Positions 8,686 to 24,230 of a stretch of 64,000 nt of DNA are shown piece after piece. This stretch comes from Methylophilus sp. TWE2. Its GTDB lineage: Bacteria; Pseudomonadota; Gammaproteobacteria; Burkholderiales; Methylophilaceae. The stretch spans positions 1,116,001 through 1,180,000 of the forward strand of contig NZ_CP012020.1 in NCBI RefSeq assembly GCF_001183865.1, read 5' to 3'. Position numbers and translations under genes: made by a program. The notes below the pieces were generated by a model. The model was not told the DNA's origin. It saw only the letters and a program-made list of their open reading frames with translations, and did no database searches. The stretch's first letter is position 1. Every line of letters begins with the position of its first letter.

Positions 8686-9267
8686 TTAGGCACCCAGATA
8701 ACGATGCAAGTGCAGATGCAACTGCTCTAAACAGACCAGAATCGTGCCTGCTGCCAGGGCTATGCCGTATGGCATTGCTACCGCGCCTTCAGAACGCAGA
8801 TCCCAGCCAAACTCTCTAAAACCAGTTAAATAGGCTGAGCGTGCCATAAATTTGATGTTGTACCACATATGTCCTAGCCCGCCGATGCGCCATGCCAATG
8901 CCAGTGCCCAAACGCCGCCGGCCATGGCACCAATCAGTAAAGAAAGAATCGCGCCTTTGGGGCCAAGCAACAAACCAATCACCGCCATAAACTTGACGTC
9001 ACCCGCGCCCACCTGTTTATGTTTGTAAGGGAAATAAAGTGATAATCCGCCAATCAGCATACCGATGACAGAAACCATCAGTCCTTTGATGACGAATTTG
9101 AACGGGAACAGAACAAACATGGCGATAAAGACAATCGCCTCCAGGCTGATGGCCGCCAGCAAATAGTTATTAGGAATTTTGCGATAGCGATAATCGCTCC
9201 AGGCCACTGCCAGAGATAAAACAATGGTGATGATGAGCAGCGTAATCAGAAACAATTCAGATGACAT
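8686..9267 (-). CDS. cpaA: Prepilin peptidase, CpaA/TadV type (A24 family)
   Basis: A 193-residue integral membrane aspartic protease with about six hydrophobic segments. Both catalytic aspartates of the family are visible: the first in WSDYRYRKIPN (about 24-34), the second in GAGDVKFM (about 87-94). It lacks the long N-terminal methyltransferase domain of PilD, as expected for Flp/Tad systems. It should cut the leaders of the Flp pilin and of the TadE-like protein, both of which have a G|QxMVEY site. It lies between the pilin and the giant glycosyltransferase, downstream of a hairpin that probably limits its expression relative to pilin. Confidence 0.9.
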   Translation of the reverse strand: MSSELFLITLLIITIVLSLAVAWSDYRYRKIPNNYLLAAISLEAIVFIAMFVLFPFKFVIKGLMVSVIGMLIGGLSLYFPYKHKQVGAGDVKFMAVIGLLLGPKGAILSLLIGAMAGGVWALALAWRIGGLGHMWYNIKFMARSAYLTGFREFGWDLRSEGAVAMPYGIALAAGTILVCLEQLHLHLHRYLGA

Positions 9268-9345: not shown

Positions 9346-9681
9346 TTAGTCGTCCAGACCCAGAACAGCGTCGGAACCCAATGTGTTTTGCATGTTTTCA
9401 CTCAGCAAACCAGCTTCGTCGAAACCTGCACCTGAGTCAGCGTTAGTTGACAAGCTTACCAGGCCGTCTGCTTCCAGACGAACGATGTTACCAGTACCGA
9501 TTTCAGTGAATTCACCGCCTGGCAAGTGGTTAGCCATCCATGCATACAGGTCAGCTGTTTTGTCACCCAACTGAACAACTGCGATGTAAGACACGGCTGC
9601 AACAGCACCCAATGTTACACCGTATTCAACCATAGATTGGCCTTCTTCGTCTTGCAGGAAGCTTTTTACGTTTTCGATCAT
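9346..9681 (-). CDS. flp: Flp/Tad major pilin, long form
   Basis: A 111-residue class IVb prepilin. The leader ends at Gly14 and is followed by QSMVEYGVTLGAVAAV: Glu +5 and Tyr +6 are the Flp processing signature, followed by a hydrophobic helix to about residue 37. The mature protein (97 residues) is longer than usual Flp pilins (about 50-60). The extra C-terminal part is acidic and rich in Ser, Asn and Gly, ending in GLDD. The start at 9681 is chosen because GGAG lies 7 bases upstream; an upstream in-frame start at 9705 has no such site. It is transcribed from a sigma-54-type promoter through a leader of about 155 bases that can fold over the ribosome-binding site. The adjoining glycosyltransferases suggest the tail may be glycosylated (inference). 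Confidence 0.92.
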   Translation of the reverse strand: MIENVKSFLQDEEGQSMVEYGVTLGAVAAVSYIAVVQLGDKTADLYAWMANHLPGGEFTEIGTGNIVRLEADGLVSLSTNADSGAGFDEAGLLSENMQNTLGSDAVLGLDD

Positions 9682-9682
9682 T

Positions 9683-9819
9683 TTATTCTCCAAAAAGATA
9701 ACCACCCAATAAAAATTAAAGTCTCATAAACTATGTGCGGGTGTTGCCACATAACTCATGTTTTATCGTTATTGGGGAGGATGGCAACATCCCGACACAC
9801 GGTTATCTTTTTGGAATAA
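9683..9819 (-). promoter_or_regulatory. Structured flp leader with a long-range anti-Shine-Dalgarno repeat
   Basis: The 21 bases at 9683-9703 include the pilin GGAG. Their mirror at 9801-9819 is identical except for a 2-base gap, so the leader RNA can pair 19 bases over the ribosome-binding site. Inside the loop there are two mutually exclusive pairings: a local GGATG/CATCC hairpin (9779-9792) and an 8-bp TGTTGCCA/TGGCAACA pairing (9742-9749 with 9782-9789). This is the layout of a translational switch. What it senses is unknown. Confidence 0.6.
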
Positions 9820-9849
9820 CACTCACCCCGGCGTGTGTACTGCCATTAA

Positions 9850-9866
9850 TGCAAAGGGTGTGCCAA
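9850..9866 (-). promoter_or_regulatory. Sigma-54 (-24/-12) promoter of flp
   Basis: On the minus strand the sequence reads TTGGCACACCCTTTGCA: GG and GC are separated by exactly 10 bases, and both the TGGCAC and TTGCA halves match the RpoN consensus perfectly. The predicted transcript start is near 9838, giving a leader of about 155 bases. No enhancer-binding protein gene lies in the window. Confidence 0.82.
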
Positions 9867-10080
9867 CTTTTGTTTTTGAGGTTTATTTCTGATTATAATT
9901 AAATAAAAACAATGACTTATTTTGTAATGGCTAGTTTTTTTGCGTCAAACCTCCTTCAAGGTGGATGATATGAAAGGTGGTTTATTCTAGCCAAAATGGT
10001 GGTTGTGGTTGTGGTTGTTGATGCGTTTTCATCCATTTGACCAGGGTCTTTCTTGATCTTCGTTCCGTGCATGAGCGTGC
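9867..10080. other. Non-coding upstream region of flp
   Basis: No gene is apparent. This is where an enhancer-binding activator of the sigma-54 promoter would be expected to bind. A short imperfect GTTGTG tandem lies near 9998-10020. No specific operator was recognised. Confidence 0.4.
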
Positions 10081-10670
10081 CCCGTACCACGATATGTGGA
10101 AATTCTGTGCCTTGCAGGCCCGTCATTCCACACTTGATGTGGAGTCCAGTGTCTTTGGTATGTCATGGAGGTAACGACGCTGGATTCCGTTTTACAACGG
10201 AATGACGGCTAGGGTGCTGGATACCAGCGTTCGCTGGTATGACGAGAAGCTGCCATTCAGCACTTGACTTGAGTCTGCCCCGTACTTCGATACGGGGGAA
10301 TCCAGTGTCTTTGTAATGTCATGGGGCTAACGCCGCTAGATTGCGTTTTGAAAATGAATGACGGCTGGTGAGCTTGACACCTGTGTTTGCTGGAATGACG
10401 ACACTCATCATTCATTCTGTACTTGATAAAGAATCAAGTTTCTTTTGTGTTGGAGTTAACGCCTCTGGATTCTGTTTTGCAACGGAATGACAGTTTCGCC
10501 AGTCGATAGTGGCCTTCGCCGGTATATCATGCTATGACGTCATTCCGAACTGAGATTCGGAATCTAGAGTCTTTTTCCTCGTCATTCCTTGCCTGGACAA
10601 GGAATCCAGTGTCTTTCGTATTTTCGGTAACATCGCTGGATTCCGTTTCACAACGGAATGACAGCTGGGC
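10081..10670. repeat. Cluster of degenerate palindromic repeats (CTGGATTCC...GGAATGACG family)
   Basis: At least eight copies of a short palindromic unit, about 27-37 bases, occur in both orientations. The clearest are a CTGGATTCCG/CGGAATGACGG unit at 10179-10209, a CTGGATACCAGCG/CGCTGGTATGACG unit at 10216-10245, and units near 10119, 10465, 10539, 10581 and 10635. Each has a conserved CTGGAT..CC flank, a variable stem and a GGAATGACG or GGTATGACG flank, often followed by CCAGTGTCTTT. The stem sequence varies with compensating changes. This is typical of small dispersed intergenic repeats. Short reading frames across it are products of the repeats, not genes. Confidence 0.8.
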
Positions 10671-10692
10671 AGTTGGATGGGCTAACACTAAT

Positions 10693-10977
10693 TTATAAAA
10701 GTCCCTCATACAAATCATTCCAATATGGATTGGTCGTTTCAATGAGTTCGACTTTCCACTGTCTTTTCCACGCTTTGAGTTGTTTTTCACGTGCAATGGC
10801 AGCCTGCATGGTGGTTGCCTGCTCATACCAAACTAAATGATGTACATGATATTTTTTAGTGAAGCCATCAATTAAATTCGATTTATGGTCCCATACACGT
10901 TTTACCAGGTTTGAGGTTACGCCAACATACAGTGTGCCGTTTCTTTGGCTGGCTAGCATGTAGACACAAGGTTGCAT
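10693..10977 (-). CDS. GIY-YIG domain endonuclease (UPF0213-like)
   Basis: A 94-residue single-domain protein. The GIY-YIG core is visible as VYMLAS (5-10) and LYVGVT (16-21), followed by Arg28 in RVWDHK and Glu64 in AREKQLKAWKR; Tyr17, Arg28 and Glu64 match the catalytic positions of the family. Small proteins of this kind are widespread and of uncertain function; nuclease activity on structured or single-stranded DNA is inferred from the fold. The gene lies alone inside a cluster of palindromic repeats, which bracket it on both sides. No partner gene is present. Confidence 0.82.
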   Translation of the reverse strand: MQPCVYMLASQRNGTLYVGVTSNLVKRVWDHKSNLIDGFTKKYHVHHLVWYEQATTMQAAIAREKQLKAWKRQWKVELIETTNPYWNDLYEGLL

Positions 10978-11084
10978 GGGCGTTCGAAAGCTTTTTGAGA
11001 GTGCATAATATTAACTTTTTATTGGTTCATAGTATATGAGATGCTTCGCACGCAAATCTTCTACCGCTTTTGAGGTACTTTTGA

Positions 11085-11300
11085 ACGATGCTGGATACCA
11101 GCTTCCGCTGGTATGACGAGAACCTGTCATTCCACACTTGACTTGAACCTGCTCCGTACCACGATAAGAGGGAATCAAGTGTTTTTTTCCTTCGTCATTC
11201 CTTGCGCCGACAAGGAATCCAGTGACTTTGGTGTGAGGGTTTAGCGCCGCTGGATACCAGCTTTTGCTGGTATGACAACCTCCTCCCTCGAGCTGTACTA
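11085..11300. repeat. Second block of the same palindromic repeats
   Basis: Three or four further units of the CTGGAT...ATGACG family flank the GIY-YIG gene on its other side: CTGGATACCAGCTTCCGCTGG near 11090, CGTCATTCCTTG..CAAGGAATCCAG near 11193, and a CTGGATACCAGC/GCTGGTATGAC unit near 11248. The rest of 10978-11503 shows no gene. Confidence 0.75.
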
Positions 11301-11503
11301 GACGTGAGCCTGCCCCTTGCTTCGACAAGGTAGAAATCGAGCATTTTCTTGAATTTGAGATCAAACCTTCAGCTATCTAACGGGTAGATATCTGGCAGTT
11401 GAAATATTGCAATTTTGACCTGCCTTTTAACTAAAGTTTTGCCGCTGACTGCCGAAATTATTGTTAAGCGCTTTGCTTAATCGATAATAAAGAAAGGTAA
11501 GCC

Positions 11504-11620
11504 ATGGCAGTCATAGAGCAAGCAATTTTGAGTTCAGGTATTATCGCTACTGCGATTTGGTTAGGTGGAAGTATGGCGGATTTATTTGCTAACATTTTCG
11601 AATTGCCATTTTTCAAATAA
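11504..11620 (+). CDS. Possible 38-residue membrane peptide
   Basis: An ATG preceded by AAAGGTAAGCC opens a 38-codon frame ending in TAA. The peptide begins MAVIEQAILSSGIIATAIWL and has one hydrophobic stretch (about residues 8-32), ending in LPFFK. A strong hairpin starts 10 bases after the stop, giving a compact gene-terminator unit. It lies between the divergent pilin and secretin operons, so a small accessory of the pilus machine is possible. It could also be a chance frame. A TTAAGC/GCTTAA inverted repeat lies just upstream (11464-11480). No function can be assigned. Confidence 0.5.
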   Translation: MAVIEQAILSSGIIATAIWLGGSMADLFANIFELPFFK

Positions 11621-11630
11621 TTTCAAAAAT

Positions 11631-11667
11631 GGTTTATTTCAGCCACACATGGTGGTTGAAATAAACC
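11631..11667 (+). terminator. 16-bp hairpin after the 38-residue reading frame
   Basis: GGTTTATTTCAGCCAC pairs with GTGGTTGAAATAAACC around a short loop, with one G-U pair, and is followed by TTTCC. It would end transcription before the secretin promoter at 11805. Confidence 0.7.
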
Positions 11668-11804
11668 TTTCCTAATCATTTGACCATGAATAATTAGCAT
11701 GGTCATGCGCATCATTCCTTAGAGTTAGCCAATTATGCTATCTTTCAGCCTGCAAAAATTCACCATCCGCCGTGTTTGATTAAAAAAACGTTTATTACTG
11801 TTGT

Positions 11805-11822
11805 TTGGTATGAAAATTGCAT
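11805..11822 (+). promoter_or_regulatory. Sigma-54 (-24/-12) promoter of the secretin-tad operon
   Basis: TTGGTATGAAAATTGCAT has GG and GC separated by exactly 10 bases and a perfect TTGCA -12 element. The predicted transcript start is near 11833, about 30 bases before the secretin ATG. Confidence 0.75.
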
Positions 11823-11862
11823 ACTCAACACGAATTTTATCTAAAAGAAATATAAAGCAATA

Positions 11863-14196
11863 ATGTATCCTAGACTGGCTTGTTTTGTTTTTTTGATGTT
11901 CGCACTGTTGGGTGTAGTGCATGCTAAAAATGTTTCGACGATTTATGTTGAGGCAGGCTTTTCTGTTCCAGTTCAGTTGCCCGAACCGGCAACTACCATT
12001 GCCATAGGCAATCAAGAGATCATTTCAACCAGTACGCTTAAGCCAGATTTGATCATTGTTAATGGTCAGACTGCGGGCGCAACCTCAATCACGGTGTTTG
12101 GCCGCAGCGGCAAGCTCTATGAGTATAGGGTACAGGTAGGTAACGATATTACCCAGTTGCGGTCAATGATTCGCTCACTTGAAAAAAATGTAACCGTGGA
12201 AGATTTAAACGGGACTATTGTGCTCAAAGGCACAGTTTCTAATCCTACCGCACTTATCAGAGTGCTTACCTTGGCAGATCGTTTTGTGACCGGCAACAAT
12301 TCATTGCCCGATTTTTCTGTGATCAGTGATCGTGGTGGTGTTTTGTCAGGGAACCTGCAAGAGTATGAAACCGGAGTGAATGAGGAGATTAGCGGAGTTT
12401 CTCCTGACCCAAGGTTATCAATTCCAACAATACCGCTAGCGGGTGGGGCTGGCGCAGGTGGCGCAGGCGGCGGGGGAGCAGGTGCAGGCGGTGGTGGCGC
12501 AGGCGGCGGTGGTTTGCGCGGTGGTGGCGTAGCCGGGGCTTTGCGCCAGCCACTGATGCCGATTAAAGGGAATTTGGCGCAAAATATATCTCGAGGCGAA
12601 ATCGTGGTTGTTGGTAATGGACGCGTGATGAGCCTGATCAAAGTCGCCAAACAACCTAAAGTTGAAATTCAGATGCAAATTATCGGGATTGATCGTAATA
12701 AAACCGATTCATATGGGCTGGATTGGCGCTTGGATACCCAGTCAAATGGGCGTGTTGTTACGGTTGGGAGTGTAATGGGCGATGTCTCGCCATCTGGAGG
12801 CAATAGTCCGGATCAACTCGCAAATAACGGTTTCGATCCTGGAAATTCTTCAATATTTGCTTTCGTAAATAATCCTGGCAAGTATGCTCTGTCAGCATTT
12901 ATGCGCTTTTTGCAGCAAAAAGGGGCAGCAAAAACACTTTCCAACCCTTTGGTAACAGCTGTTAGTGGCGAGTCGGCAAGCTTTCTTGTTGGTGGGAATA
13001 TTCCAATTCCCGTGCAAACTCAGACTGTGAACCAAGTCACTGCTACAACAGCTACGAATGTGCGCTTTATTCAGTTTGGCCTTAAATTGATTGTGAGACC
13101 GACTGTACTAGAGAACGGCAAAATTTCAATTGTTTTGGATCAATCTATTTCTGAACCTGATTATTCTCAGTCAATTACACTGCTTGGTGCCAGAATTCCT
13201 GGCTTCAATCAGAGAAGTGTAAGCACGCTGACCGAATCTGCAAGTGGGGAAACGTGGGCGGTCGCTGGCTTACTTTCAGAGGAGAATACGCGAAACCTCT
13301 CCCAAATTCCATGGTTATCTAAAGTGCCAGTGCTTGGATGGTTGTTTAAAAACAGCAGTGACGCCAAAACCAGAAATGAATTAATGATTCTTGTGAATGC
13401 AAGAGTTATTGAGGGTGACAACAACACCAAGACCAGTTTTGAGGGTGAAGGTGATTTGGCCCCTTCAGATAATGGCGGAAGTGCTGAACAGGATAACATT
13501 CCACTACCCGAGGAGGGTGGGCAGCTTAACAAGTCTGTCAATGTTAACGAAGAGCCAAGAAAATCTAGATTAAACACTGGCAATACTAATGATCAGGTTC
13601 GTTCTTTGGACTTACCTGAAGTCATCGCACCTCCCGTTAATAGGGGCCCCAAAAAACCTAAATACAAAGAGCAGCCTCCAGCTGAGACTGGTGAGTCATA
13701 TATAAATCAGGATTCGTTGGCCATTTACTCACCGGTTATCAAGGATTTACTGTCAAGACCTTTGCCTCGTGCGGGTCAAGAGCATCAGGTCGTTGCAACA
13801 AGCGCCAAGCTGATTGGTATTGAGGGAAAACTCATTTCTTATGAGGAGTTTCCTAATCCTGTCTTTGCCAACAATGAGCAAATCCAGAGTCCTGCTGAAA
13901 ACAAGCCCGGTGTAGATGGCACTGTGACTGATATCAACCAATATAGCTTGACGTCAGTAAATCAGTTTTCTGACAGTCATTTTAAAAATGACCAGCTTCA
14001 TGTTGAAATGGCTAACGGCTCTGCGTGTTCTGGCTTTTCTACCAACCATTTAGGCTCGGGTAGCACATTGGCTGGTCACTGGATGGCAGGTTTGATATTT
14101 ACTCCGATTCACGCAAAAATCATGAACGATTCGGACGGCACGTACACTGCTCCAATTTTTGCACAGGGCTTTGAAGCATTGAGTGCAAAAAAATGA
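11863..14196 (+). CDS. cpaC: Flp pilus outer-membrane secretin CpaC/RcpA with a long C-terminal extension
   Basis: A 777-residue protein with a signal peptide (cleavage near Ala21). Residues about 25-95 match the pilus-secretin N-terminal domain (IYVEAGFSVPVQLPEPA), and about 95-145 form a BON-like domain. A glycine-rich linker spans 193-226. The secretin core spans about 264-516 and includes NPLVTAVSGESASFLVGG and the closing VPVLGWLFKN...ELMILVNARV. It forms the outer-membrane channel for the pilus. About 260 residues follow the secretin core with no recognised domain, which is unusual because family members normally end soon after it. It is the first gene of the plus-strand tad operon, behind a sigma-54 promoter. 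The ribosome-binding site is weak. Confidence 0.9.
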   Translation: MYPRLACFVFLMFALLGVVHAKNVSTIYVEAGFSVPVQLPEPATTIAIGNQEIISTSTLKPDLIIVNGQTAGATSITVFGRSGKLYEYRVQVGNDITQLRSMIRSLEKNVTVEDLNGTIVLKGTVSNPTALIRVLTLADRFVTGNNSLPDFSVISDRGGVLSGNLQEYETGVNEEISGVSPDPRLSIPTIPLAGGAGAGGAGGGGAGAGGGGAGGGGLRGGGVAGALRQPLMPIKGNLAQNISRGEIVVVGNGRVMSLIKVAKQPKVEIQMQIIGIDRNKTDSYGLDWRLDTQSNGRVVTVGSVMGDVSPSGGNSPDQLANNGFDPGNSSIFAFVNNPGKYALSAFMRFLQQKGAAKTLSNPLVTAVSGESASFLVGGNIPIPVQTQTVNQVTATTATNVRFIQFGLKLIVRPTVLENGKISIVLDQSISEPDYSQSITLLGARIPGFNQRSVSTLTESASGETWAVAGLLSEENTRNLSQIPWLSKVPVLGWLFKNSSDAKTRNELMILVNARVIEGDNNTKTSFEGEGDLAPSDNGGSAEQDNIPLPEEGGQLNKSVNVNEEPRKSRLNTGNTNDQVRSLDLPEVIAPPVNRGPKKPKYKEQPPAETGESYINQDSLAIYSPVIKDLLSRPLPRAGQEHQVVATSAKLIGIEGKLISYEEFPNPVFANNEQIQSPAENKPGVDGTVTDINQYSLTSVNQFSDSHFKNDQLHVEMANGSACSGFSTNHLGSGSTLAGHWMAGLIFTPIHAKIMNDSDGTYTAPIFAQGFEALSAKK

Positions 14197-14227
14197 CCGA
14201 TATGCATTATTAATTATGTGAGCCCAT

Positions 14228-14962
14228 ATGACTGCTTTAGGTAAATATTTAAATCAACTCTCTTTAACCAGAATTTTGCTTTCGTTATTTCTGTTGTTTC
14301 TTGTGGCAGCCTGTACGCAGCAACCTGTCCTTCCAAGTAACCCTGCTGCACCCATGCCTGAGAACGTCTCTTTTGAAGATCAAACACAGAAGCAAATACA
14401 ATCATCAAGGCAGTGGCAAATCGTGGCTGAAGATATGGCCGAGCAGCTTGCACAGACTATTCAGCATAATAACTGGACCAAAAGTACATTCCATGTATTT
14501 CCACAGTCAAAGCCAACGACGTTTACCCGGGCATTTAATGATTTTTTGATTACCTCTTTAGTGAATAAAGGGGTGAAAGTCACTACTGTCAAAACAGCCA
14601 GTCGCGTTTTTAATTATAAAATTCAGCTGGTTGAGTATAATTCGCTCAGGAGTACGATGCTGAGTGAAAACTATAAATTCAGTAGTCTGGCTGCAGGGGT
14701 TGTGGTCGCGCGAAATATAGGTGAAGTATTGGGAGTGGACGGAACACTGTTGGCAGGTGGTGTTGCACTTGACGCTGCAGATTTGAATTTTGCGCCAAAT
14801 CTTGAGGTTATCATTACTTCCTCAATTGTAGAAAACAATGTTTTTGTCCTGCGGACAACAGATATTTATTATGCAAATCGCGCGGACAAGCATTTATACA
14901 TTCCAGCAAATTCACAGCGTAATACTGACGTGTTCAGTGAGCCTTTCTATCAACTGAAATAA
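14228..14962 (+). CDS. Lipoprotein of the tad operon, function unknown
   Basis: A 244-residue protein with a clear lipoprotein signal: a hydrophobic stretch and lipobox LVAAC with Cys29. The mature part is a soluble periplasmic domain (WQIVAEDMAEQLAQTIQ at about 60-76, then a mixed alpha/beta region to the end). The position matches that of the CpaD/TadG-class lipoproteins that help secretin assembly in other Tad loci, but I see no clear CpaD motif; the layout also recalls FlgO-like lipoproteins. It follows the secretin gene by 31 bases. Confidence 0.7.
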   Translation: MTALGKYLNQLSLTRILLSLFLLFLVAACTQQPVLPSNPAAPMPENVSFEDQTQKQIQSSRQWQIVAEDMAEQLAQTIQHNNWTKSTFHVFPQSKPTTFTRAFNDFLITSLVNKGVKVTTVKTASRVFNYKIQLVEYNSLRSTMLSENYKFSSLAAGVVVARNIGEVLGVDGTLLAGGVALDAADLNFAPNLEVIITSSIVENNVFVLRTTDIYYANRADKHLYIPANSQRNTDVFSEPFYQLK

Positions 14963-14980
14963 TATTGAATCAATGTGATA

Positions 14981-15610
14981 ATGAATAAAAAGAAATGGTT
15001 AATTGCAGGGGTGCTAGTATTTATTGTCTTCTTTAGCATCACGTTTATAAAAAACTGGAGTGTTGCTGTATCTGGTAACCTCGTTGAAAAGTATGCTCCT
15101 GTGATCAAGCGATTAAAAAATGATCCCAAATCAGCGCGTATTCAATGCCCAGAAATGATTACGAAGTTAGAAAAAAGTTTGCCAGAACTGGCGCTAAGTA
15201 AAGACAAACTTCAAAAACCGCGCGCGCAAAAGTTGATTGCCGATTGTGCCTTTGCAATCGGTGATTATGAAAAGGCGATTGTGTATTTAAAAGCTTTGTA
15301 CACGCTCGATCCAAATAATGCACAGTGGTATTGGAAGATTGCGGATGCTTACACGCGAGCTGGAAAGTTTGGCGATTCTTTAAATTATGCCCGTCTTTCG
15401 ACGCAACTTGACCCGCAGAATTTCAAATATAACCTGTTACATGCCAGGATACTTGCAAAGCTTGGGCTAAAAAACAGGGCTGTCACAGCATATGCACAGA
15501 CAATAAAGGTTGCTCCTTTTGACAAGATTGAGCCAACCAAAAAGGAGTTGGCTCGGTTTCTTGACAGAATCGAAGCTAAAAACGATGAAGATCAAAAGCA
15601 GGATGAGTAA
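14981..15610 (+). CDS. Membrane-anchored TPR protein (TadD-like)
   Basis: A 209-residue protein from the ATG at 14981; a GTG two codons upstream is an alternative start. Residues about 4-24 form one membrane anchor (WLIAGVLVFIVFFSITFI). The rest is TPR-like, best seen at ADCAFAIGDYEKAIVYLKAL and AWYWKIADAYTRAGKF-type repeats (about 75-165), with a charged tail. In Tad systems a TPR protein (TadD) supports pilus assembly, and the place between secretin and CpaE fits that. The stop abuts the cpaE start directly. Confidence 0.72.
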   Translation: MNKKKWLIAGVLVFIVFFSITFIKNWSVAVSGNLVEKYAPVIKRLKNDPKSARIQCPEMITKLEKSLPELALSKDKLQKPRAQKLIADCAFAIGDYEKAIVYLKALYTLDPNNAQWYWKIADAYTRAGKFGDSLNYARLSTQLDPQNFKYNLLHARILAKLGLKNRAVTAYAQTIKVAPFDKIEPTKKELARFLDRIEAKNDEDQKQDE

Positions 15611-16810
15611 ATGCGCATTTTGATTATTAGTGCTCATCCAACCTTCCGACAGCAAGTACAGGCTGCATGTCTTAGGTTTGAAAATACTGCAGTCAGTCTC
15701 CGAACCGCGGAGTCTATGGGGCAAGGGATAGAGTTGGCGCTCCAGTTTGAGGCTCAGCTTGTTTTTCTTGATTTGACACGAAATCACGAAGCGGGGATGC
15801 TCACACTTGAACAGCTATCTCAGGTGAAAAATCGTCTGGTGGCAGTGAGTGCGGATAAGATGGGAACAGATCTTATGGCGCGTGCGATTCGAACAGGCGC
15901 TGGTGAGCTGCTTGCACAACCTGTTTCAGATGATGATGTATTTGCGATTATTGAAAAGGCAATGCACCTGCAAAGTGACAATGTTGTGTTGCAGCCGCTA
16001 CGGTCAGGTAAATCTATCATGTGTTTTTCCAGTAAAGGGGGCGTTGGGAAAACCTCCATGTCCTGTAATCTTGCTGTTATCTTGAGTGAGATTTATGGCG
16101 CAGGAAAAATCGCGTTGATTGATGCCAACATTCAAGCGCCTAACGTTGCACCCATGCTCGATTTGCGCCCTGTAAGCTGGCTCAAGGATGCTGTTGCAGA
16201 ATATAAACGTCTTGATAGCCAGTTGCTTGGTGATTTTATGACTACACATGAGCCGAGTGGTGTACATGTGCTGGCACACAATACTAATGATCCGCTTGGC
16301 GTTGACTACACAGAAGATCAACTGACAAAAATTCTATTGGTCGCAAAAGGAACTTATGAGTGGACTGTGGTTGACACATTTCCTCTGCTTTCAAGTTTAA
16401 ATTTGTCACTCATGGATTTGTGTGACGAAATAATATTGGTGACTGAGGCTGTTGTTCCTTCTTTACGTAGTGCAAAACATAATCTGGAAATTCTTCAGCA
16501 GGCTGGCTATGGCGAAAATCGAATTCGTGTTGTTCTGAATAGATTCACTAATTTCGAAGGCAATATTTCACCTGAGTTGTGTGCCGAAGCTTTGGCATGG
16601 CCCATCGAGCAGATTATTCCATATGATGTTCACGCAACGATTGCAACAAATGCAGGTAAGCCATACACCCAAATGTATCCTGACAGGCGCATTAGCTCTG
16701 CTGTACGAAATTTGGCTGCAAAGATTGCGCAAACAGAGGTCATGGCAGAAACTGTCGAGACATCAATAGAGAAATATTGGCGGCAGTTCAAAAACTGGAT
16801 GGACATTTAA
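15611..16810 (+). CDS. cpaE: Pilus localisation ATPase CpaE/TadZ
   Basis: A 399-residue protein. Residues 1-120 form a degenerate receiver-like domain (MRILIISAHPTFRQQV; VFLDLTRNHE at 51-60). Residues about 134-385 form a ParA/MinD-type ATPase with the deviant Walker A SKGGVGKTS at 141-149. Such proteins place the Tad machine at the cell pole in known cases. The stop codon of the TPR gene is immediately before the start, and the cpaF start immediately follows its own stop, so the operon is tight. Confidence 0.9.
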   Translation: MRILIISAHPTFRQQVQAACLRFENTAVSLRTAESMGQGIELALQFEAQLVFLDLTRNHEAGMLTLEQLSQVKNRLVAVSADKMGTDLMARAIRTGAGELLAQPVSDDDVFAIIEKAMHLQSDNVVLQPLRSGKSIMCFSSKGGVGKTSMSCNLAVILSEIYGAGKIALIDANIQAPNVAPMLDLRPVSWLKDAVAEYKRLDSQLLGDFMTTHEPSGVHVLAHNTNDPLGVDYTEDQLTKILLVAKGTYEWTVVDTFPLLSSLNLSLMDLCDEIILVTEAVVPSLRSAKHNLEILQQAGYGENRIRVVLNRFTNFEGNISPELCAEALAWPIEQIIPYDVHATIATNAGKPYTQMYPDRRISSAVRNLAAKIAQTEVMAETVETSIEKYWRQFKNWMDI

Positions 16811-18196
16811 ATGGCAGAAGAACGGCTTGATAGCTTAAGATCAGAGCTCAGAAAGCACGAGACCAATCAATTTAGTTTGCTCTCTGAACGCTTGGTTGCA
16901 CTCGGTCAAACTACTCTTGAATCCAATCTGCTGGCCGGTAAATCAGTACAGACCACTTCTGCATCCTCTTACTCTGAAGTTCGTCATCGGCTTCACAAGG
17001 GGCTCATTGAACTACTCAACCCGCAGGCCGTCAGTGTTGCATCATTAGACCAGATTGAGCTCGCGGTAAAAGAGTATGTTAATAATGCGCTTGATCAGGA
17101 AACTGTGCCTCTCAGTAGAATTGAAAGGGGGCGCTTGGTTGAGGACCTTATCTATGAGGTCATGGGGTTGGGTCCTCTTTCACCTTTAATGACTGACCGT
17201 ACCATCTCGGATATTCTGGTGAATGGGGCCCACAATATTTATGTCGAAAAACATGGGTTGCTGGAGCTAACAGATGTGCATTTTCACGACGATGAGCATT
17301 TGATGCTGACCATAGAGCGCATTTTGTCTCGCGTGGGGCGTCGTGTCGATGAGTCCTCTCCGATGGCTGATGCGCGGCTCGCCGATGGTAGCCGTGTCAA
17401 CGTGATTATTCCACCTCTGGCCCTCAAGGGGCCTACTATGTCCATACGCCGGTTCATGCGTAATATTTTGGATGTGAATGAGTTGGTGGCAGGTGGCTCG
17501 ATGACCTTTGAGGCTGCGGAGTTTCTCAAGTTGGCAGTGAGAGCTCAGCTGAATATTGTGGTTTCAGGCGGCACTGGGTCAGGTAAAACCACCATGCTGA
17601 ATTGCTTGTCGCAATACATCGGCGAAGGCGAACGCATTGTCACGATTGAAGACACGGCAGAATTGCAGTTGAATCAACGTCATGTCGTGCAATTAGAGGC
17701 AAGACCAGCCAACACGGAGGGGATGGGTTCAGTCACCATACGTGATCTTGTCAAGAACTCTTTGAGGATGCGCCCTGACCGCATTATCGTTGGCGAGGTG
17801 CGTGGTGCAGAAGCGCTGGATATGTTACAGGCCATGAATACTGGTCATGATGGCTCCCTGGCAACCCTACACTCAAACAGCCCCAGAGATACGCTTGCCC
17901 GTCTTGAAACCATGATGCTGATGGCTGAGCTGGATTTGCCACAACGAGTATTGCGTGAACAGATTGCATCCGCAGTACATCTGATTGTTCATGTGAACCG
18001 TTATGCCGATGGTGGTCGCAGGGTTTCAAATATCTCTGAGATTACCGGCCTGGAGGAGGGAACAGTCCTGATGCAGGATATATTTATCACCAAGCGTGAA
18101 GGAGATGAAATGGTCATGCGCTCATCCGGCATTATTCCAAATATCCTCAAATTGATGCATGAGCGGGGAGTCGATGTGAGTCATGACTTGTTCTAG
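16811..18196 (+). CDS. cpaF: Pilus assembly/retraction ATPase CpaF/TadA
   Basis: A 461-residue secretion ATPase. It shows the N-terminal domain, then the Walker A GGTGSGKTT at residues 253-261, an Asp box (IVTIEDTAEL), the Walker B region (RIIVGEVRGAEALDML), and the His box (GHDGSLATLHSN). It drives polymerisation of the Flp pilin through the TadB/TadC platform. It is placed between cpaE and tadB, as in most Tad loci. Confidence 0.95.
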   Translation: MAEERLDSLRSELRKHETNQFSLLSERLVALGQTTLESNLLAGKSVQTTSASSYSEVRHRLHKGLIELLNPQAVSVASLDQIELAVKEYVNNALDQETVPLSRIERGRLVEDLIYEVMGLGPLSPLMTDRTISDILVNGAHNIYVEKHGLLELTDVHFHDDEHLMLTIERILSRVGRRVDESSPMADARLADGSRVNVIIPPLALKGPTMSIRRFMRNILDVNELVAGGSMTFEAAEFLKLAVRAQLNIVVSGGTGSGKTTMLNCLSQYIGEGERIVTIEDTAELQLNQRHVVQLEARPANTEGMGSVTIRDLVKNSLRMRPDRIIVGEVRGAEALDMLQAMNTGHDGSLATLHSNSPRDTLARLETMMLMAELDLPQRVLREQIASAVHLIVHVNRYADGGRRVSNISEITGLEEGTVLMQDIFITKREGDEMVMRSSGIIPNILKLMHERGVDVSHDLF

Positions 18197-18237
18197 ACGG
18201 ATCAATTTTTTTAAAAGCAAAATAGATACATGACACC

Positions 18238-19185
18238 ATGTTAATTTGGGCAATCTTAGTCGGTACATTGCTTGCTTATTTAATTTTTGATTATTTCAAA
18301 AGTTACAGGCGTGACAAGGTCATGGAGCGTCTTGATTTTGGTTTCACTTATGAAGAGGATGAATTACCTTCTTTGTGGGATGGCGCAAAGAATTTTCTGC
18401 AATTGGGCACTGTGCGACAGCTCTTATTGCAAAGTGCAATTATTCGCGCACTGGATGTGCATCTAAGAAGATCGCAACTTTCAATCAGTCTGCTCCAGGC
18501 AATTTTCGTCATCATAGGGCTGACACTGATTTCTTCAGTGTTATGTTACTTTTTATTTAAAAATGCAACGCCAGCAGTGGTTAGCTTGTTAGTCACTCCC
18601 ATTTTGCTCTGGTGGCTACTGAGTTTTCTGTCTGAAAAGCAACAGAAAAAAATGGACTTGCTTTTACCATCTCTCATCAACAGCATGCTTACTACCATGC
18701 GTGCCGGCGGGACGCCTGTCCAGGCACTCCATGCGACATCTAGAAATGCCGCTGAGCCAATGAAAAGTTCAATCACCCACGTACTCAATCAGTTACAACT
18801 CGGTCAATCCCCGATTACGGTGTGGAAAGAATGGTCTGATTTCTGGGATACTAAAAGTGCCAGGCTTCTATCAACTGGTATCCGTGTAAAATGGGAGGCT
18901 GGAGGGCAGATGTCCTCAGTACTAGAACACATTCTTGAAACGATAGAGTTTAGAAAGAAAATTGAAGTACGCATTAGCACGCTGACTACTCAGGCAAAAA
19001 TCGGGTCTATTCTTCTCACGGTAATTCCTCCGTTCCTGGTCTATATTCAATACTTACGGACACCTGAGCTCGTGACAGAAATGTTTGAAGATGATGTTGG
19101 CCAAAAAATGTATATTTTTGCGGCGACACTCACTATCGTGGGTTTTATTTGGCTACGAAAGTTAGCTAAAGTCAAACTGGAATAA
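18238..19185 (+). CDS. tadB: Tad inner-membrane platform protein TadB
   Basis: A 315-residue T2SSF-type protein. It has a membrane segment at the N-terminus, two more near 85-125 (LLQAIFVIIGLTLISSVLCY) and a pair at the C-terminus (about 255-310). The cytoplasmic GspF domain contains LLPSLINSMLTTMRAGGTPV. Together with TadC it forms the pilus assembly platform that docks onto CpaF. Five bases separate it from tadC. Confidence 0.9.
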   Translation: MLIWAILVGTLLAYLIFDYFKSYRRDKVMERLDFGFTYEEDELPSLWDGAKNFLQLGTVRQLLLQSAIIRALDVHLRRSQLSISLLQAIFVIIGLTLISSVLCYFLFKNATPAVVSLLVTPILLWWLLSFLSEKQQKKMDLLLPSLINSMLTTMRAGGTPVQALHATSRNAAEPMKSSITHVLNQLQLGQSPITVWKEWSDFWDTKSARLLSTGIRVKWEAGGQMSSVLEHILETIEFRKKIEVRISTLTTQAKIGSILLTVIPPFLVYIQYLRTPELVTEMFEDDVGQKMYIFAATLTIVGFIWLRKLAKVKLE

Positions 19186-19189
19186 ATAG

Positions 19190-20050
19190 ATGGATAATTT
19201 CTGGCTTTATTTGCTTTTATTGATTCCGGGAGTATTAGTTGTCTGGTTTATCAGGGCCAGGATGATTAAAAGAAACTTTCGTGAGCGCTTGTTTTTTGGC
19301 ATACAACCGCTTGAGGAGGACGAACCCCCTGAGATCAGCCTGTCTTCAGGAGATTATGGCCTGGAAGGGGTAGATAGAGCTATCTTTTTCCTAAGTAAGT
19401 TTCTTTCAACACCCATCGGATATATCGTTTTATTCGCGCTTGGCGCTTTTATAGGCTTTTTACTCAAGCTGATATTCGGCTTCGAGAAATTTAATACACT
19501 CTTGCTAGCGGCACTCATTGGTGTCCTGCTGTTCTCGATGGTTAATATTTTTATTAACCGTAGCAAGCGTAAAAGAAGCCAGCGGATCAGGTATGAACTA
19601 CCAAACGCATTGCAAAGTATTGTTGCTGTGATGGAGAGCGGTTTGGCCTTTGAATCTGCCTTGCAGCATGTGGTGAGGGAGTCTGGCGTGAGCCATCCAC
19701 TCTATTTTGATTTGCAAGTAATGATGGATGCCATGCAGCAGGGTAGAAGGCGAAATGATGCCCTTAAGCTTTGGGCAACACGGGCAAATGAAAGGACAGT
19801 GACGGATGTTGTCGCTGCCATGATTCAGGCAGACCAGACAGGCGCCGCATTAGGCAGTGTTTTGCGCCATCATGCGACCTCTCAACTGAAGGAAATTGAG
19901 GCCGAGCTTCTCAAAAAAGCTGAGCGTATACCCATTTACATGATTTTTCCGATGATGTTTTGCATACTTCCACCCATCATGATTGTGGCAGTAGGGCCAA
20001 GCGCAATTCGTATCGTAAGAATGTTTCAGGCGATTATGTCCAAGGCTTAA
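19190..20050 (+). CDS. tadC: Tad inner-membrane platform protein TadC
   Basis: A 286-residue T2SSF-type protein with an N-terminal membrane segment, two around residues 60-125, and a last one at about 250-280 (MIFPMMFCILPPIMIVAVGP). The GspF core includes LPNALQSIVAVMESGLAFES and the QADQTGAALGSVLRHH segment typical of the C-terminal half. It is the partner of TadB. It precedes a DUF192 gene by six bases. Confidence 0.9.
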   Translation: MDNFWLYLLLLIPGVLVVWFIRARMIKRNFRERLFFGIQPLEEDEPPEISLSSGDYGLEGVDRAIFFLSKFLSTPIGYIVLFALGAFIGFLLKLIFGFEKFNTLLLAALIGVLLFSMVNIFINRSKRKRSQRIRYELPNALQSIVAVMESGLAFESALQHVVRESGVSHPLYFDLQVMMDAMQQGRRRNDALKLWATRANERTVTDVVAAMIQADQTGAALGSVLRHHATSQLKEIEAELLKKAERIPIYMIFPMMFCILPPIMIVAVGPSAIRIVRMFQAIMSKA

Positions 20051-20056
20051 GGCAAT

Positions 20057-20425
20057 ATGAATCACAACCAAAAATCTAGCACGCAGTCTCTTTACAATAT
20101 CGACGCCGATCAATTAATTGTCAGCCATGTGATAATGGCTAATAATTTTTTTACCAGGCTAAAGGGGCTGATGTTTTGCAAATATCTAGCCCAGGATAGT
20201 GCATTACTGATTAAGCCATGCCAGCAGATACACACGCATTTTATGCACTTTCCAATTGATGTATTGTTTTTGAATAATCAATTGGAAGTAGTTCACGTGA
20301 TTCGGGGAATGAAACCCTGGCGCTTCTCAAAATATATCAAGCAGGCATCATTTGTGATTGAAACCAACGCCGGTGTATCACATTCGGTAGAGGTTGGTCA
20401 CCGCTTAAAACTAGCTACTGCATAA
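20057..20425 (+). CDS. DUF192 family protein
   Basis: A 122-residue single-domain DUF192 protein, recognisable from FTRLKGLMFCKYLAQDSALL and the core IHTHFMHFPIDVLFL followed by VIETNAGV. Members often carry a signal peptide; this one does not and is probably cytoplasmic. DUF192 genes recur next to Tad and type II/IV secretion genes, but the biochemical role is unknown. It closes the plus-strand tad operon; the convergent cpaB gene ends at the very next base, so there is no room for a terminator between them. Confidence 0.85.
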   Translation: MNHNQKSSTQSLYNIDADQLIVSHVIMANNFFTRLKGLMFCKYLAQDSALLIKPCQQIHTHFMHFPIDVLFLNNQLEVVHVIRGMKPWRFSKYIKQASFVIETNAGVSHSVEVGHRLKLATA

Positions 20426-21448
20426 TCATTCATATACCTGGGTTGGATAGTAATCTCTGGAAATGATTTGAACCGGAGCTTGAGCCGTGTCTGAATAGTT
20501 CTGGCTCCTGATTGTTCTGTTATCCGGGTTGTAGTTTGGGTTTTTCTCAGCCTGGCTAAACTGTGAGGACCCTGGAACAGTGTTGGTTCTCTTGGTGCCC
20601 ATAATAATGGCAACCTTGTCAGGGTCTGGCTCCAGCTTCGGAATCCGTGTCGTAATTGATAAGTCCTTTTCAGTCGTTATTTTTTCATCATCAGTAGAGG
20701 GTCTGAACACAACACGCATGGTCGCGCCTGCGGCAATCATGAGCGTTGTAACGTGAGCATTCTGCGGCGACATCTGTAGCACTACAAACTCTCTATCCTT
20801 CCCTCTCGCAGGCGTTCTCAGCACCTCAGCATCCTCCGCAACAAGAGAGGCTGTCACACCATTATCAATTTTGGCGATACCAGCGGGTTGTCCTCTACGT
20901 GGAGGTCTGGCTCCAGGTTGACTGCCCCCAAGATTGGGTGCGCTTGGCGCTGCATCTGTCGCATCTGGGTTAGCACTGATTGCCAGCAGGTCTATATGAT
21001 CACCCACCTTAAGTGTTCCTATCGCACCGGGGATGGTCATGGCATTGACAATTACAATCCGCTTACCAGGGCTTGCCAGTGCAGAGTACCCGCCTTCAAC
21101 ATTACTCTCAGAGACGTTTTCCTCCTTAAAGTGTGTTGCTGCAAGTATCGGTTTAGTTGCATAGTGCCCAAGAAATTGATCTGGTTTAAGCAAAGCATCT
21201 TCAGGCACCTTTTCCGCAGCCTTATAGGCCATGCGTATCATGGAGACATTAATTCTCTCGCCTATATTGATGTTTCTATTGGCGACAGGAACACCGATGC
21301 TGCCAGCTGGTGGCGGGTTATTCGCACGGCCTTTATTTGTGTTACCACCTAAAAGCACATATAGCCCCCCCCCGATCAGTAACATAATAATCACTAATAT
21401 CACTATCATCTGGCGCTGTTGTCTGGCGCGATTATTTTGCTGTGCCAT
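20426..21448 (-). CDS. cpaB: Flp pilus assembly protein CpaB/RcpC
   Basis: A 340-residue protein with one N-terminal membrane segment (about 13-33, IVILVIIMLLIGGGLYVLL). A SAF domain at about 48-115 (GSIGVPVANRNINIGERINV) is followed by the CpaB/RcpC C-terminal domain. A proline/glycine-rich stretch lies near 180-195. It is a periplasmic partner of the secretin. It is the last gene of the third tad unit, 27 bases after the TadE-like gene, unlike most Tad loci where cpaB is adjacent to cpaC. Confidence 0.9.
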   Translation of the reverse strand: MAQQNNRARQQRQMIVILVIIMLLIGGGLYVLLGGNTNKGRANNPPPAGSIGVPVANRNINIGERINVSMIRMAYKAAEKVPEDALLKPDQFLGHYATKPILAATHFKEENVSESNVEGGYSALASPGKRIVIVNAMTIPGAIGTLKVGDHIDLLAISANPDATDAAPSAPNLGGSQPGARPPRRGQPAGIAKIDNGVTASLVAEDAEVLRTPARGKDREFVVLQMSPQNAHVTTLMIAAGATMRVVFRPSTDDEKITTEKDLSITTRIPKLEPDPDKVAIIMGTKRTNTVPGSSQFSQAEKNPNYNPDNRTIRSQNYSDTAQAPVQIISRDYYPTQVYE

Positions 21449-21475
21449 GAATACTCTCTACTTTAATTCCGGTTA

Positions 21476-23056
21476 TTAATTACAAGCACTAATCTGGTTG
21501 GTTTCCACATCAACCTCGTAACAACCTCTGAAATCCTTGAATTGTTTGACAGATAACCTGCCATTATTACCCAGCGGCCCAATCTCAGAGTCAATCACGC
21601 CGTTTACTTGGCCGTTTAAACTGCCGTTGTTAGGATTGTAAAACAAACTTACAGCGGCTTCGTAATCATCGTCATTCACGTCTATTGCCCTGACACCAAA
21701 TCCAAGGAAGCCTTCAAAAATCTTACGGTAACGCGTATGAAGTCTAACCTTACTAAACGAGGTGTCACAACTGGAGATGCTTGATAAATCTGGTGTGGGT
21801 GAGGTGTTACATTCAATTTGCATTGATGGCCTGAAGTTTTGTAAATCAGCATCCACATTGTTGATGGTGTATTTAAACACCTCACTGGAATCGCTGCCTT
21901 TGTTCCAGCGGAAATATCCAGTTGGGCCAATTTCATCAGAGATTAAATCTTGATCTGGACAAATGTTCGTATCATCGCTCATACACATTTTGCCAGGTGG
22001 TATTAAGTTGCCATTTAAATCATTTTTGTACATGCCGTACATGGCTTGATTGAGTTTGGGGAGGCCTGCGACAAAATTGTTTTCAAAATCCTCTACTGAG
22101 TTTATGGAGGATTGGGGTGGAGTATATCCAGCAACTAGGGTTGATAGACCTGCTGTGATAGTTTGGCAGCTCGCAGTATTAATCGGCAAAGGATTAAAAA
22201 GATAAACAACGGATCCAGTTTGAAAGATATGTCTGTTGCCTGTGTTGTCATAGTATTCACGATAGATATATCGATCATTTGGTAACCCGTCATCGTAAAT
22301 GCCAGCATTGCAGTTTGGCTGTTGAATCAGATTGGAGGCATGATCGCCAATGGCAATTGGTGCTTCTCTTAAAGAGTAATCAAAATAATTTAGCGGTAAC
22401 TTAGCTAATTTTAAATGCTGCAATAAAATCAACTTATAATATTTTACTGAAGAACTTGCTTCTTCTTTAATGATTGCCTCTGCCTCAGTCAATTCATCAT
22501 TAGTTAAGCTGTCGTCACCATCAGAATCATATGCATCTAAAACAACATATTCATCATCAGTGTCTGCCTCACTTGTTCTAAATGCATAGGCTTCAAGCAC
22601 ATCGGCTGGTGTGAGTGTAGTGTCAGTCTGAATTGCTGCGATTATTTTTGCATCTAAATATTCGATATAGCTGGCAAATTGTATTGTATACGGTGCAATG
22701 TTATCGCATTTAAATCCAGCGGATGGGGTTGAATCAAGAGTGCCCTCATCATTTGCTTTACCATAAAGAGTGTTACAAGTTGTGGATTCAGCGTTTAATG
22801 AAGCTGTTAAATTTAAAGAGTACTGCCTTTCAGCATTCAATATATTCAACCTCCGCTGATTCACCTCTGCATATTCATTAATCCCCGTTTTCGCAGCATC
22901 GGTATTTTTATAACTGGCCAGGGCGGCCATACCGAGCTCAGCGCCACCAATAAACAATATCGAGAGCACAATAAACAAAATGGCATATTCCACCATGGCT
23001 TGGCCACGCTGGAATTGCATTTGGTTGCTGAAAAAGGGATGATTCAAGGCATTCAC
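21476..23056 (-). CDS. Large TadE-like pseudopilin with an EF-hand-like loop
   Basis: A 526-residue protein. The prepilin site is G18|QAMVEY, followed by a hydrophobic helix (AILFIVLSILFIGGAELGMA), so it should be cut by the CpaA peptidase like Flp. TadE/TadF proteins are usually 150-200 residues; this one has a periplasmic or extracellular domain of about 480. Residues 177-188 (DSDGDDSLTNDE) match a 12-residue EF-hand calcium loop at positions 1, 3, 5, 8 and 12, with Asp in place of Gly at 6. Six or more cysteines are spread through the C-terminal part. I infer a minor pilin at the pilus tip, perhaps an adhesin, stabilised by calcium. The rest of the domain is not recognised. Confidence 0.75.
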   Translation of the reverse strand: MNALNHPFFSNQMQFQRGQAMVEYAILFIVLSILFIGGAELGMAALASYKNTDAAKTGINEYAEVNQRRLNILNAERQYSLNLTASLNAESTTCNTLYGKANDEGTLDSTPSAGFKCDNIAPYTIQFASYIEYLDAKIIAAIQTDTTLTPADVLEAYAFRTSEADTDDEYVVLDAYDSDGDDSLTNDELTEAEAIIKEEASSSVKYYKLILLQHLKLAKLPLNYFDYSLREAPIAIGDHASNLIQQPNCNAGIYDDGLPNDRYIYREYYDNTGNRHIFQTGSVVYLFNPLPINTASCQTITAGLSTLVAGYTPPQSSINSVEDFENNFVAGLPKLNQAMYGMYKNDLNGNLIPPGKMCMSDDTNICPDQDLISDEIGPTGYFRWNKGSDSSEVFKYTINNVDADLQNFRPSMQIECNTSPTPDLSSISSCDTSFSKVRLHTRYRKIFEGFLGFGVRAIDVNDDDYEAAVSLFYNPNNGSLNGQVNGVIDSEIGPLGNNGRLSVKQFKDFRGCYEVDVETNQISACN

Positions 23057-23101
23057 AGAGTTAATCGACGGGCAGGTGTCTTATATGCAAACAGCTTGAT
23101 T

Positions 23102-23797
23102 TCAGGCAGCGTTGTTGATTTCTTCGCGTTGAGAGACATGTAATGCGCGTTGTTTTGCCTGAAACCAGGCTTGCGCGTGCTCGCAGTCTTTATATTCATT
23201 AAAGTATGGACCGCCAAGGGTGAAGTGGACCAGAGCGGCACTAGGGTTTGGTTCATTATAGCCCACCAGGTGGTTCCAGCGTGCTGGAATCTCGCCGATC
23301 AGGTCGTCGTTTGCCAGCCATTTGAACTGATGTAGTTCCAGGCCGGTGGCGGTATTGACGTAGTCAGGAGACAGGGCTTTACACCTTTTGTTGTTAAACA
23401 TCATCACGCTTGACCAGTTTTTTTTCTGGTATTTGGTTTGAACGGCATTTAAAAACTTGATATCTTCTTTGGGTTGATGATCATGCTTGACGCACATGAC
23501 AGCGTAGCGGTCATCACGCATGTTCCACAGGTTGACGATATCTTCAGTCATCAACATGTCGCAATCCATGAAAATACTCCAGCCATCATAAGCTGAAAGA
23601 TAAGGTGTTAAAAATCTAGAAAAAGAAAATTCGGTGGATTGCAATGGATTACGCTCGCGCTTATAAATAGATTTAAGCTGGGAGAGCATGATTGGAGTGA
23701 TGCTGACAGGTTGGGAGGCATGCTCGTGAATACTGTGTGATAACACGCTGAATGCACCGACTTCTTTGGGGTCGTAACCTATAAATACATTAATCAT
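23102..23797 (-). CDS. Small GT8/GT32-like glycosyltransferase heading the tadE-cpaB unit
   Basis: A 231-residue GT-A type protein. It opens with MINVFIGYDPKEVGAFSVL, and the metal-binding DCD motif is in GWSIFMDCDMLMTEDI (about 73-88). A C-terminal HFTLGGPYFNEYKDCEHA resembles the end of GT8-like proteins. It uses a nucleotide sugar; donor and acceptor are unknown. It is the first gene after a sigma-54-type promoter and is followed 45 bases later by the TadE-like pseudopilin. That suggests it modifies a component of the pilus (inference). Confidence 0.78.
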   Translation of the reverse strand: MINVFIGYDPKEVGAFSVLSHSIHEHASQPVSITPIMLSQLKSIYKRERNPLQSTEFSFSRFLTPYLSAYDGWSIFMDCDMLMTEDIVNLWNMRDDRYAVMCVKHDHQPKEDIKFLNAVQTKYQKKNWSSVMMFNNKRCKALSPDYVNTATGLELHQFKWLANDDLIGEIPARWNHLVGYNEPNPSAALVHFTLGGPYFNEYKDCEHAQAWFQAKQRALHVSQREEINNAA

Positions 23798-23838
23798 TGC
23801 TCACTCCAAAACCATTATTTATTTTAGTGAGTAACTAA

Positions 23839-23854
23839 TGCAAAAATTGTGCCC
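23839..23854 (-). promoter_or_regulatory. Sigma-54 (-24/-12) promoter of the glycosyltransferase-tadE-cpaB unit
   Basis: On the minus strand the sequence reads GGGCACAATTTTTGCA: GG and GC are separated by exactly 10 bases with the GGCAC and TTGCA halves intact. The predicted transcript start is near 23828, about 30 bases before the first gene. Confidence 0.75.
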
Positions 23855-24004
23855 ATGCCTGCATGGCTGTTGAGTCCGCGTATTCTGGGATTTGAACGTC
23901 TTTTGAGTATATTTTAAGTGGTTTATTTGAGCCTATTGGTTGTATACAGCCAGTTTTATTTTGTGTATGGTTAATGCTTATTCATTCCGTGGCAGGAGTT
24001 TGAG

Positions 24005-24140: not shown

Positions 24141-24230
24141 ACGGCTTATGATAAAACCCCTGGCGCCACTGTATATCTGCTTTCGCAGCGATGACGATTT
24201 GAAAATTCTGCGTCCACCCCGTTGAACTGT

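Follow-up and report, generated by a model that had tools for sequence, protein, structure and literature searches.

The genes of the Flp/Tad pilus in Methylophilus sp. TWE2 lie in three transcription units, and each unit is headed by a predicted sigma-54 promoter with an enhancer-like dyad, TGGYT-N6-ARCCA, upstream of it. The units were studied in a window of 64 kb, C1:1116001-1180000 of the 3.08-Mb single-contig genome, which has one rpoN gene. Our main reading, to which we give a probability of about 0.78, is that the three units would be transcribed from RpoN promoters that are activated through these dyads by an NtrC-family regulator encoded at C1:1514144-1515559, some 375-390 kb from the Tad units, and that they belong to a wider surface regulon.

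The sequence-only reading had placed one sigma-54 promoter before the first gene of each Tad unit. All three sites were found, each facing that gene:

9850..9865, minus strand: predicted sigma-54 promoter of the flp unit, TGGCACACCCTTTGCA, with the top matrix score in the window
11806..11821, plus strand: predicted sigma-54 promoter of the secretin unit, TGGTATGAAAATTGCA, conserved
23839..23854, minus strand: predicted sigma-54 promoter of the glycosyltransferase/CpaB unit, GGGCACAATTTTTGCA, conserved

Read directly, every one of the three keeps GG-N10-GC together with TTGCA and has near-consensus flanks. The predicted leaders are 158 nt for flp and 31 nt each for the secretin and the glycosyltransferase gene, in agreement with the earlier estimates of about 155 and, for two units, about 30. 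When a sigma-54 matrix written from the known consensus was run over the 64-kb window, the Tad sites took ranks 1, 4 and 6. Ranks 2, 3 and 5 (at 56343, 51826 and 57596) all fall outside the tad region, and the match at 51826 overlaps an open reading frame (ORF) on the opposite strand. A pattern written to fit the three Tad sites, KGGYAYRNNNNTTGCA, was matched 14 times in the 3.08-Mb genome, compared with 4 matches of the backward pattern. Since about 8 of the 14 directly precede genes, the pattern finds plausible RpoN promoters. Beyond the Tad heads it stands before a gene for an extracytoplasmic function (ECF) sigma factor and before formate/nitrite-transporter-like and hemolysin-like genes, all named by eye from the translations. 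It also precedes an ssuD-like gene adjoining an SfnR-like activator and a pyrroloquinoline quinone (PQQ)-dehydrogenase-like gene adjoining an AcoR-like activator, again judged by eye.

Upstream of the Tad sites we noticed a recurrent dyad, GGYT-N6-ARCC, which is often present twice. Its extended form, TGGYT-N6-ARCCA, occurs without mismatch exactly three times in the window (9978, 11630 and 23937), once for each Tad promoter, and two of the units have a second copy:

9978..9993, minus strand: perfect dyad (candidate enhancer) of the flp unit
11630..11645, plus strand: perfect dyad of the secretin unit
11653..11668, plus strand: second dyad of the secretin unit, with one mismatch
23937..23952, minus strand: perfect dyad of the glycosyltransferase/CpaB unit
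23919..23934, minus strand: second dyad of the glycosyltransferase/CpaB unit, with one mismatch

These dyads lie 72-168 bp upstream of each Tad sigma-54 site. When up to one mismatch was allowed, 16 dyads were counted in the window against 9.8 expected, including those at 11653 and 23919. Three composites of a site plus a dyad are present in the window and none was found in 300 dinucleotide shuffles, a figure that is not an unbiased probability because the dyad was noticed after the sites. A shared dyad in this position is what an enhancer would lead one to expect, and it is a candidate activator site.

Unlike the post hoc shuffle figure, conservation in relatives is an independent test of the sites and the dyads. 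A secretin of our own Tad type, with at least 43% identity, is encoded in 10 of 150 family genomes, our own and G075, G036, G112, G060, G006, G130, G134, G002 and G025, and 20 Tad loci were compared, nine of our own Tad type and eleven of another. M. methylotrophus DSM 46235 and M. aquaticus have all three sites at the matching heads and at nearly equal distances. All three are also present in G006, and the secretin and flp sites in G112 and G060. At flp, a site scoring at least 16.8 was found 174-219 bp 5' of the ATG in eight of nine flp genomes; five of these eight site-bearing genomes have a perfect dyad, and G002, G025 and G006 have copies with two mismatches. The second flp-like copy in G036 is without a sigma-54 site. 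The glycosyltransferase head was comparable in three relatives only. Eighteen heads were examined for a perfect dyad within 420 bp, and 16 have one, the exceptions being flp in G006, with its two-mismatch copies, and the secretin in G134. Conservation in related Methylophilaceae, a check that the sequence-only reading had asked for, holds for most heads. It fails for G134, to which we return below, and is weaker or imperfect in three secretins: in G130 the GG-N10-GC site is weak (score 10.0), and in G002 and G025 a site at -48 lacks the first G while a full site stands at about -309, upstream of the dyads. At L059:4942-4969 and L060:2649-2676, sigma-54-like sites overlap head to head and face the secretin and an unknown ORF of 142 residues.

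The dyad is not confined to the Tad units. Across the genome, TGGYTNDWWHNARCCA was found at 23 places compared with 3 for the reversed control, and these are counted as 22 box places because two of the dyads are only 22 bp apart. With a score of at least 11.5 and the right orientation as the criterion, 10 of the 22 have a sigma-54-like site 79-168 bp off. They comprise the three Tad units, four ECF-type sigma genes (boxes 423529, 804502, 840486 and 1281789, with Pfam matches to sigma-70 region 4), the TonB-receptor operon that contains the NtrC-family regulator (box 1511473), and two places where no protein gene was recognised downstream (143667/143689 and 1384893), which belong to small RNA (sRNA)-like genes. 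For a random point of the window, the probability of such a site is 0.053, which gives P 7e-8 for 10 of 22. When the Tad places were removed, 7 of 19 box places had a site (P 3.5e-5).

The first of the two sRNA-like genes has its site at C1:143779, followed by about 153 nt that close with a terminator which looks strong by eye (L098:3780-3960). The second has its site at C1:1384801 on the minus strand, followed by about 125 nt, again with a terminator recognised by eye (L093:4165-4317, minus). Similar DNA is present in 20 of the 150 genomes for the first and in 15 for the second, our own included. The first alignment holds 15 sequences (L154-L168), after five genomes with short fragment matches and a second match in G139 were dropped; the second holds all 15 (L175-L189). 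Every sequence of both alignments has kept the sigma-54 site (15 of 15 each). A core dyad is likewise present in all 15 of each, at 86-90 and/or 108-112 bp upstream in the first and at about 92 bp upstream in the second; some rows of the distance table for the second gene were measured from the terminator and not from the promoter. The second gene has a stable predicted fold with stems, in which 3 of 38 pairs are changed on both sides in some genome and the covariation term is near zero, so that its structural support is modest. The loci of both genes gave no Rfam match at the gathering level, and in E-value mode only sub-gathering matches appeared for both genes and for the flp leader. The most significant of these weak matches on the own strand of the first gene was anti-hemB (23.4 bits against 49.5). 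From their sequences, the two are predicted sRNA-like genes that are conserved and share one promoter plan.

The sequence-only reading had also proposed that the activator is encoded elsewhere in the genome, and the search for it supports this. Nine genome places match the sigma-54 activator domain, two of them weakly (30.6 and 26.4 bits), and seven were counted as true activators. With a threshold of 1e-3, no homologue of any of the seven turned up in the window or in the Tad loci as first delimited; the second regulator copy of G006, described below, is just outside the locus of that genome. The best candidate, C1:1514144-1515559, is the only one among them with a perfect dyad within 20 kb. 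It has receiver, sigma-54 AAA+ and Fis-type helix-turn-helix (HTH) domains, all above the Pfam cut-offs, and two perfect dyads precede the TonB-receptor gene that lies before it. Orthologues of at least 62% identity are found in 82 of the 150 family genomes, and two more genomes have a copy at 43%.

Sixteen regulator regions were read, one from our own genome and the others from 14 relatives. All 15 operons of TonB receptor and regulator among them have two or three perfect dyads before the TonB gene, 2.6-2.8 kb before the regulator, with a spacing of 22 or 32 bp (18 and 24 in L153). The sigma-54-like sites before this operon score 8.1-15.5. G006 has a second regulator copy (L144) that lacks the TonB gene and is located beside flp and the prepilin peptidase gene in the Tad island; a single perfect dyad precedes this copy by 336 bp. 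The number of dyads also follows the regulator: 880 against 170 for the control in the 82 genomes that have it, 144 against 71 in 66 genomes without it, and 5 against 6 in the two genomes whose copy is at 43%. The HTH of the regulator is nearly invariant in the 39 loci compared.

Outside the family, a 120-genome sample of the order, in which our own genome and three family members also match, contained six regulator copies of 55-58% identity in 5 genomes. In four of these six loci the regulator gene is followed, at 0.1-0.5 kb, by a pair of dyads with a spacing of 19-21 bp and at most one mismatch each, and in two of the four the next gene encodes a TonB receptor homologous to our own (37-38%). 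Regulator, dyad and TonB receptor tend to stay together despite the changed gene order, which is our strongest evidence that the regulator reads the dyad. Both regulator copies of G165 are without a perfect dyad. In four of the six loci outside the family, the gene immediately before the regulator encodes a histidine kinase; within the family, no kinase was recognised by eye beside the regulator gene. As leads only, we record that some regulator loci outside the family are near PQQ-related genes, with an alcohol dehydrogenase family match of 363 bits in L226 (cut-off 480), and that PqqU is the nearest match of the TonB receptor of L225, though far below the cut-off (143 against 1200).

A different activator, for example PilR (C1:2785066) or the AtoC-like protein (C1:2867631), might bind the dyads at RpoN promoters, the TonB-operon regulator then being merely one of the targets. 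The presence of seven activators in the genome favours this possibility, as does the control of other pili by PilR-type regulators via RpoN described in passages of PMC2725144. However, no perfect dyad lies within 20 kb of the other six activator genes, and the dyads accompany the TonB-operon regulator within and outside the family, with its second copy even in a Tad island. We consider this alternative unlikely.

Several observations weigh against activation of the Tad units by C1:1514144-1515559. G134 has neither a sigma-54 site nor a perfect dyad at its secretin or flp. All nine relatives with our own Tad type carry the candidate regulator, but this is weak evidence by itself because it is present in 82 of the 150 family genomes anyway. 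The sites before the TonB operon are often poor, the best one lacking the -12 GC in L147, L148 and L152 and being reversed in L153. The dyad excess differs with a Mann-Whitney P of 2e-18, but genome size and kinship confound this value. An excess of 2 or less was counted in eight genomes that have the regulator (G005, G023, G033, G041, G042, G045, G061 and G121), and one of at least 3 in twelve that lack it. Eight of the twelve were examined, with G056, G058, G086 and G089 left out. G007 has a regulator fragment of 59% identity with stops, and G133 and G064 are incomplete assemblies. G021, G018 and G026 have the excess without a close orthologue (nothing above 41% identity); likewise, G148 has nothing above 41% and G135 no match at all. 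The two perfect dyads scored outside the family have poor adjacent sigma-54 sites, with best scores of 3.8 and 9.9. Finally, the sigma-54 contact loop of our regulator reads GAFTNA and not GAFTGA. In 39 loci (L022, L109-L138 and others) the loop is GAFTNA in 26, GAFTGA in 6, GAFTSA in 4, GAYTNA in 2 and GSFTGA in 1; variants such as GAFTDA are recorded for other activators in passages of PMC3333781 / PMC4641369.

To these points belong the 12 of 22 box places without a sigma-54-like site, 8 of which are within ORFs; the four intergenic ones include 1291203, near a fifth ECF-type sigma gene. They would fit a dyad that is read by a different transcription factor, activator or repressor, with the Tad genes transcribed mainly from sigma-70 promoters and the sigma-54 sites playing a minor part. 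Candidate sigma-70 promoters at the unit heads were rejected, as their matches are no more frequent than expected by chance (6 for 6.1, and 1 for 1.4). At the Tad heads, and likewise at both sRNA-like genes, conservation extends to the sigma-54 site and the dyad alike. We regard this explanation as quite improbable. The view that a short consensus was matched three times by chance hardly deserves credit: the similar scores at 56343, 51826 and 57596 favour it, but the shuffles, the conservation at the same heads and the shared dyads reject it. The three are, as judged from their sequence, real sigma-54 sites.

We thus prefer activation of the Tad units by the TonB-operon regulator. Sites, dyads, their conservation and the association of the dyads with the regulator operon are present in the DNA as read; we infer that the regulator binds the dyads and activates, that a kinase phosphorylates it, and that a signal is received. 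The phosphorylated regulator would bind the TGGYT-N6-ARCCA dyads as dimers, and the usual two or three dyads, 18-32 bp apart and about 70-260 bp upstream, would help the AAA+ ring to assemble. DNA looping would bring the ring to the RpoN polymerase at -24/-12, and the promoter would then open. The regulator would also drive its own operon, led by the TonB receptor, as well as the four ECF-type sigma genes and the two sRNA-like genes. We lean slightly towards a still broader view, in which a family-wide sigma-54 switch consists of the regulator and the TonB receptor under paired dyads and commands a set of ECF-type sigma factors and two small RNAs, together with the Tad pilus in genomes that have it. 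If this is true, a single signal, which may be linked to the ligand of the receptor, would govern both surface attachment and uptake through the outer membrane.

The genes of the three units are as follows:

9346..9681, minus strand: flp pilin gene, first of the flp unit (Flp_Fap Pfam match)
8686..9267, minus strand: prepilin peptidase gene (Peptidase_A24)
3708..8663, minus strand: gene for a TPR/glycosyltransferase protein (Pfam)
11863..14196, plus strand: secretin (RcpA/CpaC) gene, matched by secretin models, head of the main tad unit
14228..20425, plus strand: remainder of the main tad unit, with two genes, CpaE-like, TadA, TadB- and TadC-like (by position) and DUF192
23102..23797, minus strand: family 8 glycosyltransferase gene (Pfam), head of the glycosyltransferase/CpaB unit
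21476..23056, minus strand: gene of unknown family, second in the glycosyltransferase/CpaB unit, kept in relatives
20426..21448, minus strand: CpaB/RcpC-like gene (SAF domain)

With a flp pilin, a prepilin peptidase, a secretin and a TadA-type ATPase, the window has the components expected of a Flp/Tad cluster. The TadA score in NCBIfam is 334.8, under the curated cut-off of 373.15, and TadB and TadC of the main unit have no NCBIfam match. The flp gene does come first in its unit, as had been claimed, but its Pfam score of 19.7 bits is below the cut-off of 32.2. The second gene of the third unit (21476-23056), earlier named tadE, has no Pfam match and is listed here as of unknown family.

Of the 11 loci of the other Tad type (L066-L076), six (L066, L067, L069, L070, L073 and L075) have a sigma-54-like site some 2.8 kb upstream of the secretin. 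Since a perfect dyad is present in 0 of the 11, we do not claim the regulator for this type, and another activator may serve it.

Two further elements lie close to the Tad promoters:

9768..9838, minus strand: conserved, structured-looking element in the 5' leader of flp (alignment of 7 leaders)
11504..11621, plus strand: ORF of 38 residues, MAVIEQAILSSG...LPFFK, upstream of the secretin promoter

The leader element reads CACAC-(2-3)-GGGGTGAG-stem-GTGTGTCGGGA in the 7 aligned leaders, and it may be a regulatory RNA because its inner stem seems, by eye, to be changed on both sides. The 38-residue ORF is kept in M. methylotrophus and M. aquaticus and has no Pfam match. In the intergenic regions 10000-11350 and 24000-24200, which flank the main tad unit, short repeats like GGATACCAGC...GCTGGTATGAC recur, as seen by eye.

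Control of Tad-type pili by sigma-54 already has a precedent in Desulfovibrio. DVU2114 of Desulfovibrio vulgaris is a sigma-54-dependent response regulator, and its targets are the pilin and assembly genes that the authors find most Cpa/Tad-like (PMC3333781, PMC4641369). The likeness, an NtrC-family response regulator acting on Tad-like pilus genes, is drawn from the description of that system only. DVU2114 was mapped by DNA binding, our dyads by sequence, and the passages on DVU2114 name pili as targets, without ECF sigma genes, a TonB receptor or sRNAs.

In Escherichia coli, QseE/QseF controls the sRNA gene glmY and the ECF sigma gene rpoE from sigma-54 promoters via several upstream sites (PMC6075780). 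There, too, one NtrC-family response regulator joins an sRNA and an ECF sigma gene. In contrast, the QseF site is TGT-N12-ACA, the kinase is encoded adjacent to the regulator, and the passages on this system mention neither a pilus nor a TonB receptor. In Pseudomonas sp. M1, mutations in the AAA+ domain of FleQ accompany the loss of Tad proteins in proteomics (PMC13111069). FleQ is a flagellar master regulator, and the passages of that work do not establish direct sigma-54 promoters for the tad genes; among our seven activators, no FleQ was recognised by eye. In Pectobacterium, a response regulator beside flp/tad raises flp/tad transcription, and mutation of the sigma-54 activator VasH left the tested flp/tad genes unchanged by quantitative PCR, according to passages of PMC3767616. 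That regulator is encoded beside its cluster, whereas our candidate is encoded elsewhere. Passages of a P. fluorescens rpoN study contain no flp/tad value in the rpoN comparison.

In the open-licence literature, nothing was found on sigma-54 control of Tad pili in the Methylophilus family, and as far as our searches show, the dyad, the assignment of the regulator and the make-up of the regulon are new in this family. They would give the Tad pili of methylotrophs a concrete regulator, a predicted binding site and a list of targets. QseF and LuxO-Qrr can be likened to the proposed circuit, which would differ from them by having a transport receptor in the loop. The making of the pilus would be joined to small RNAs and to the control of uptake by TonB and ECF sigma factors.

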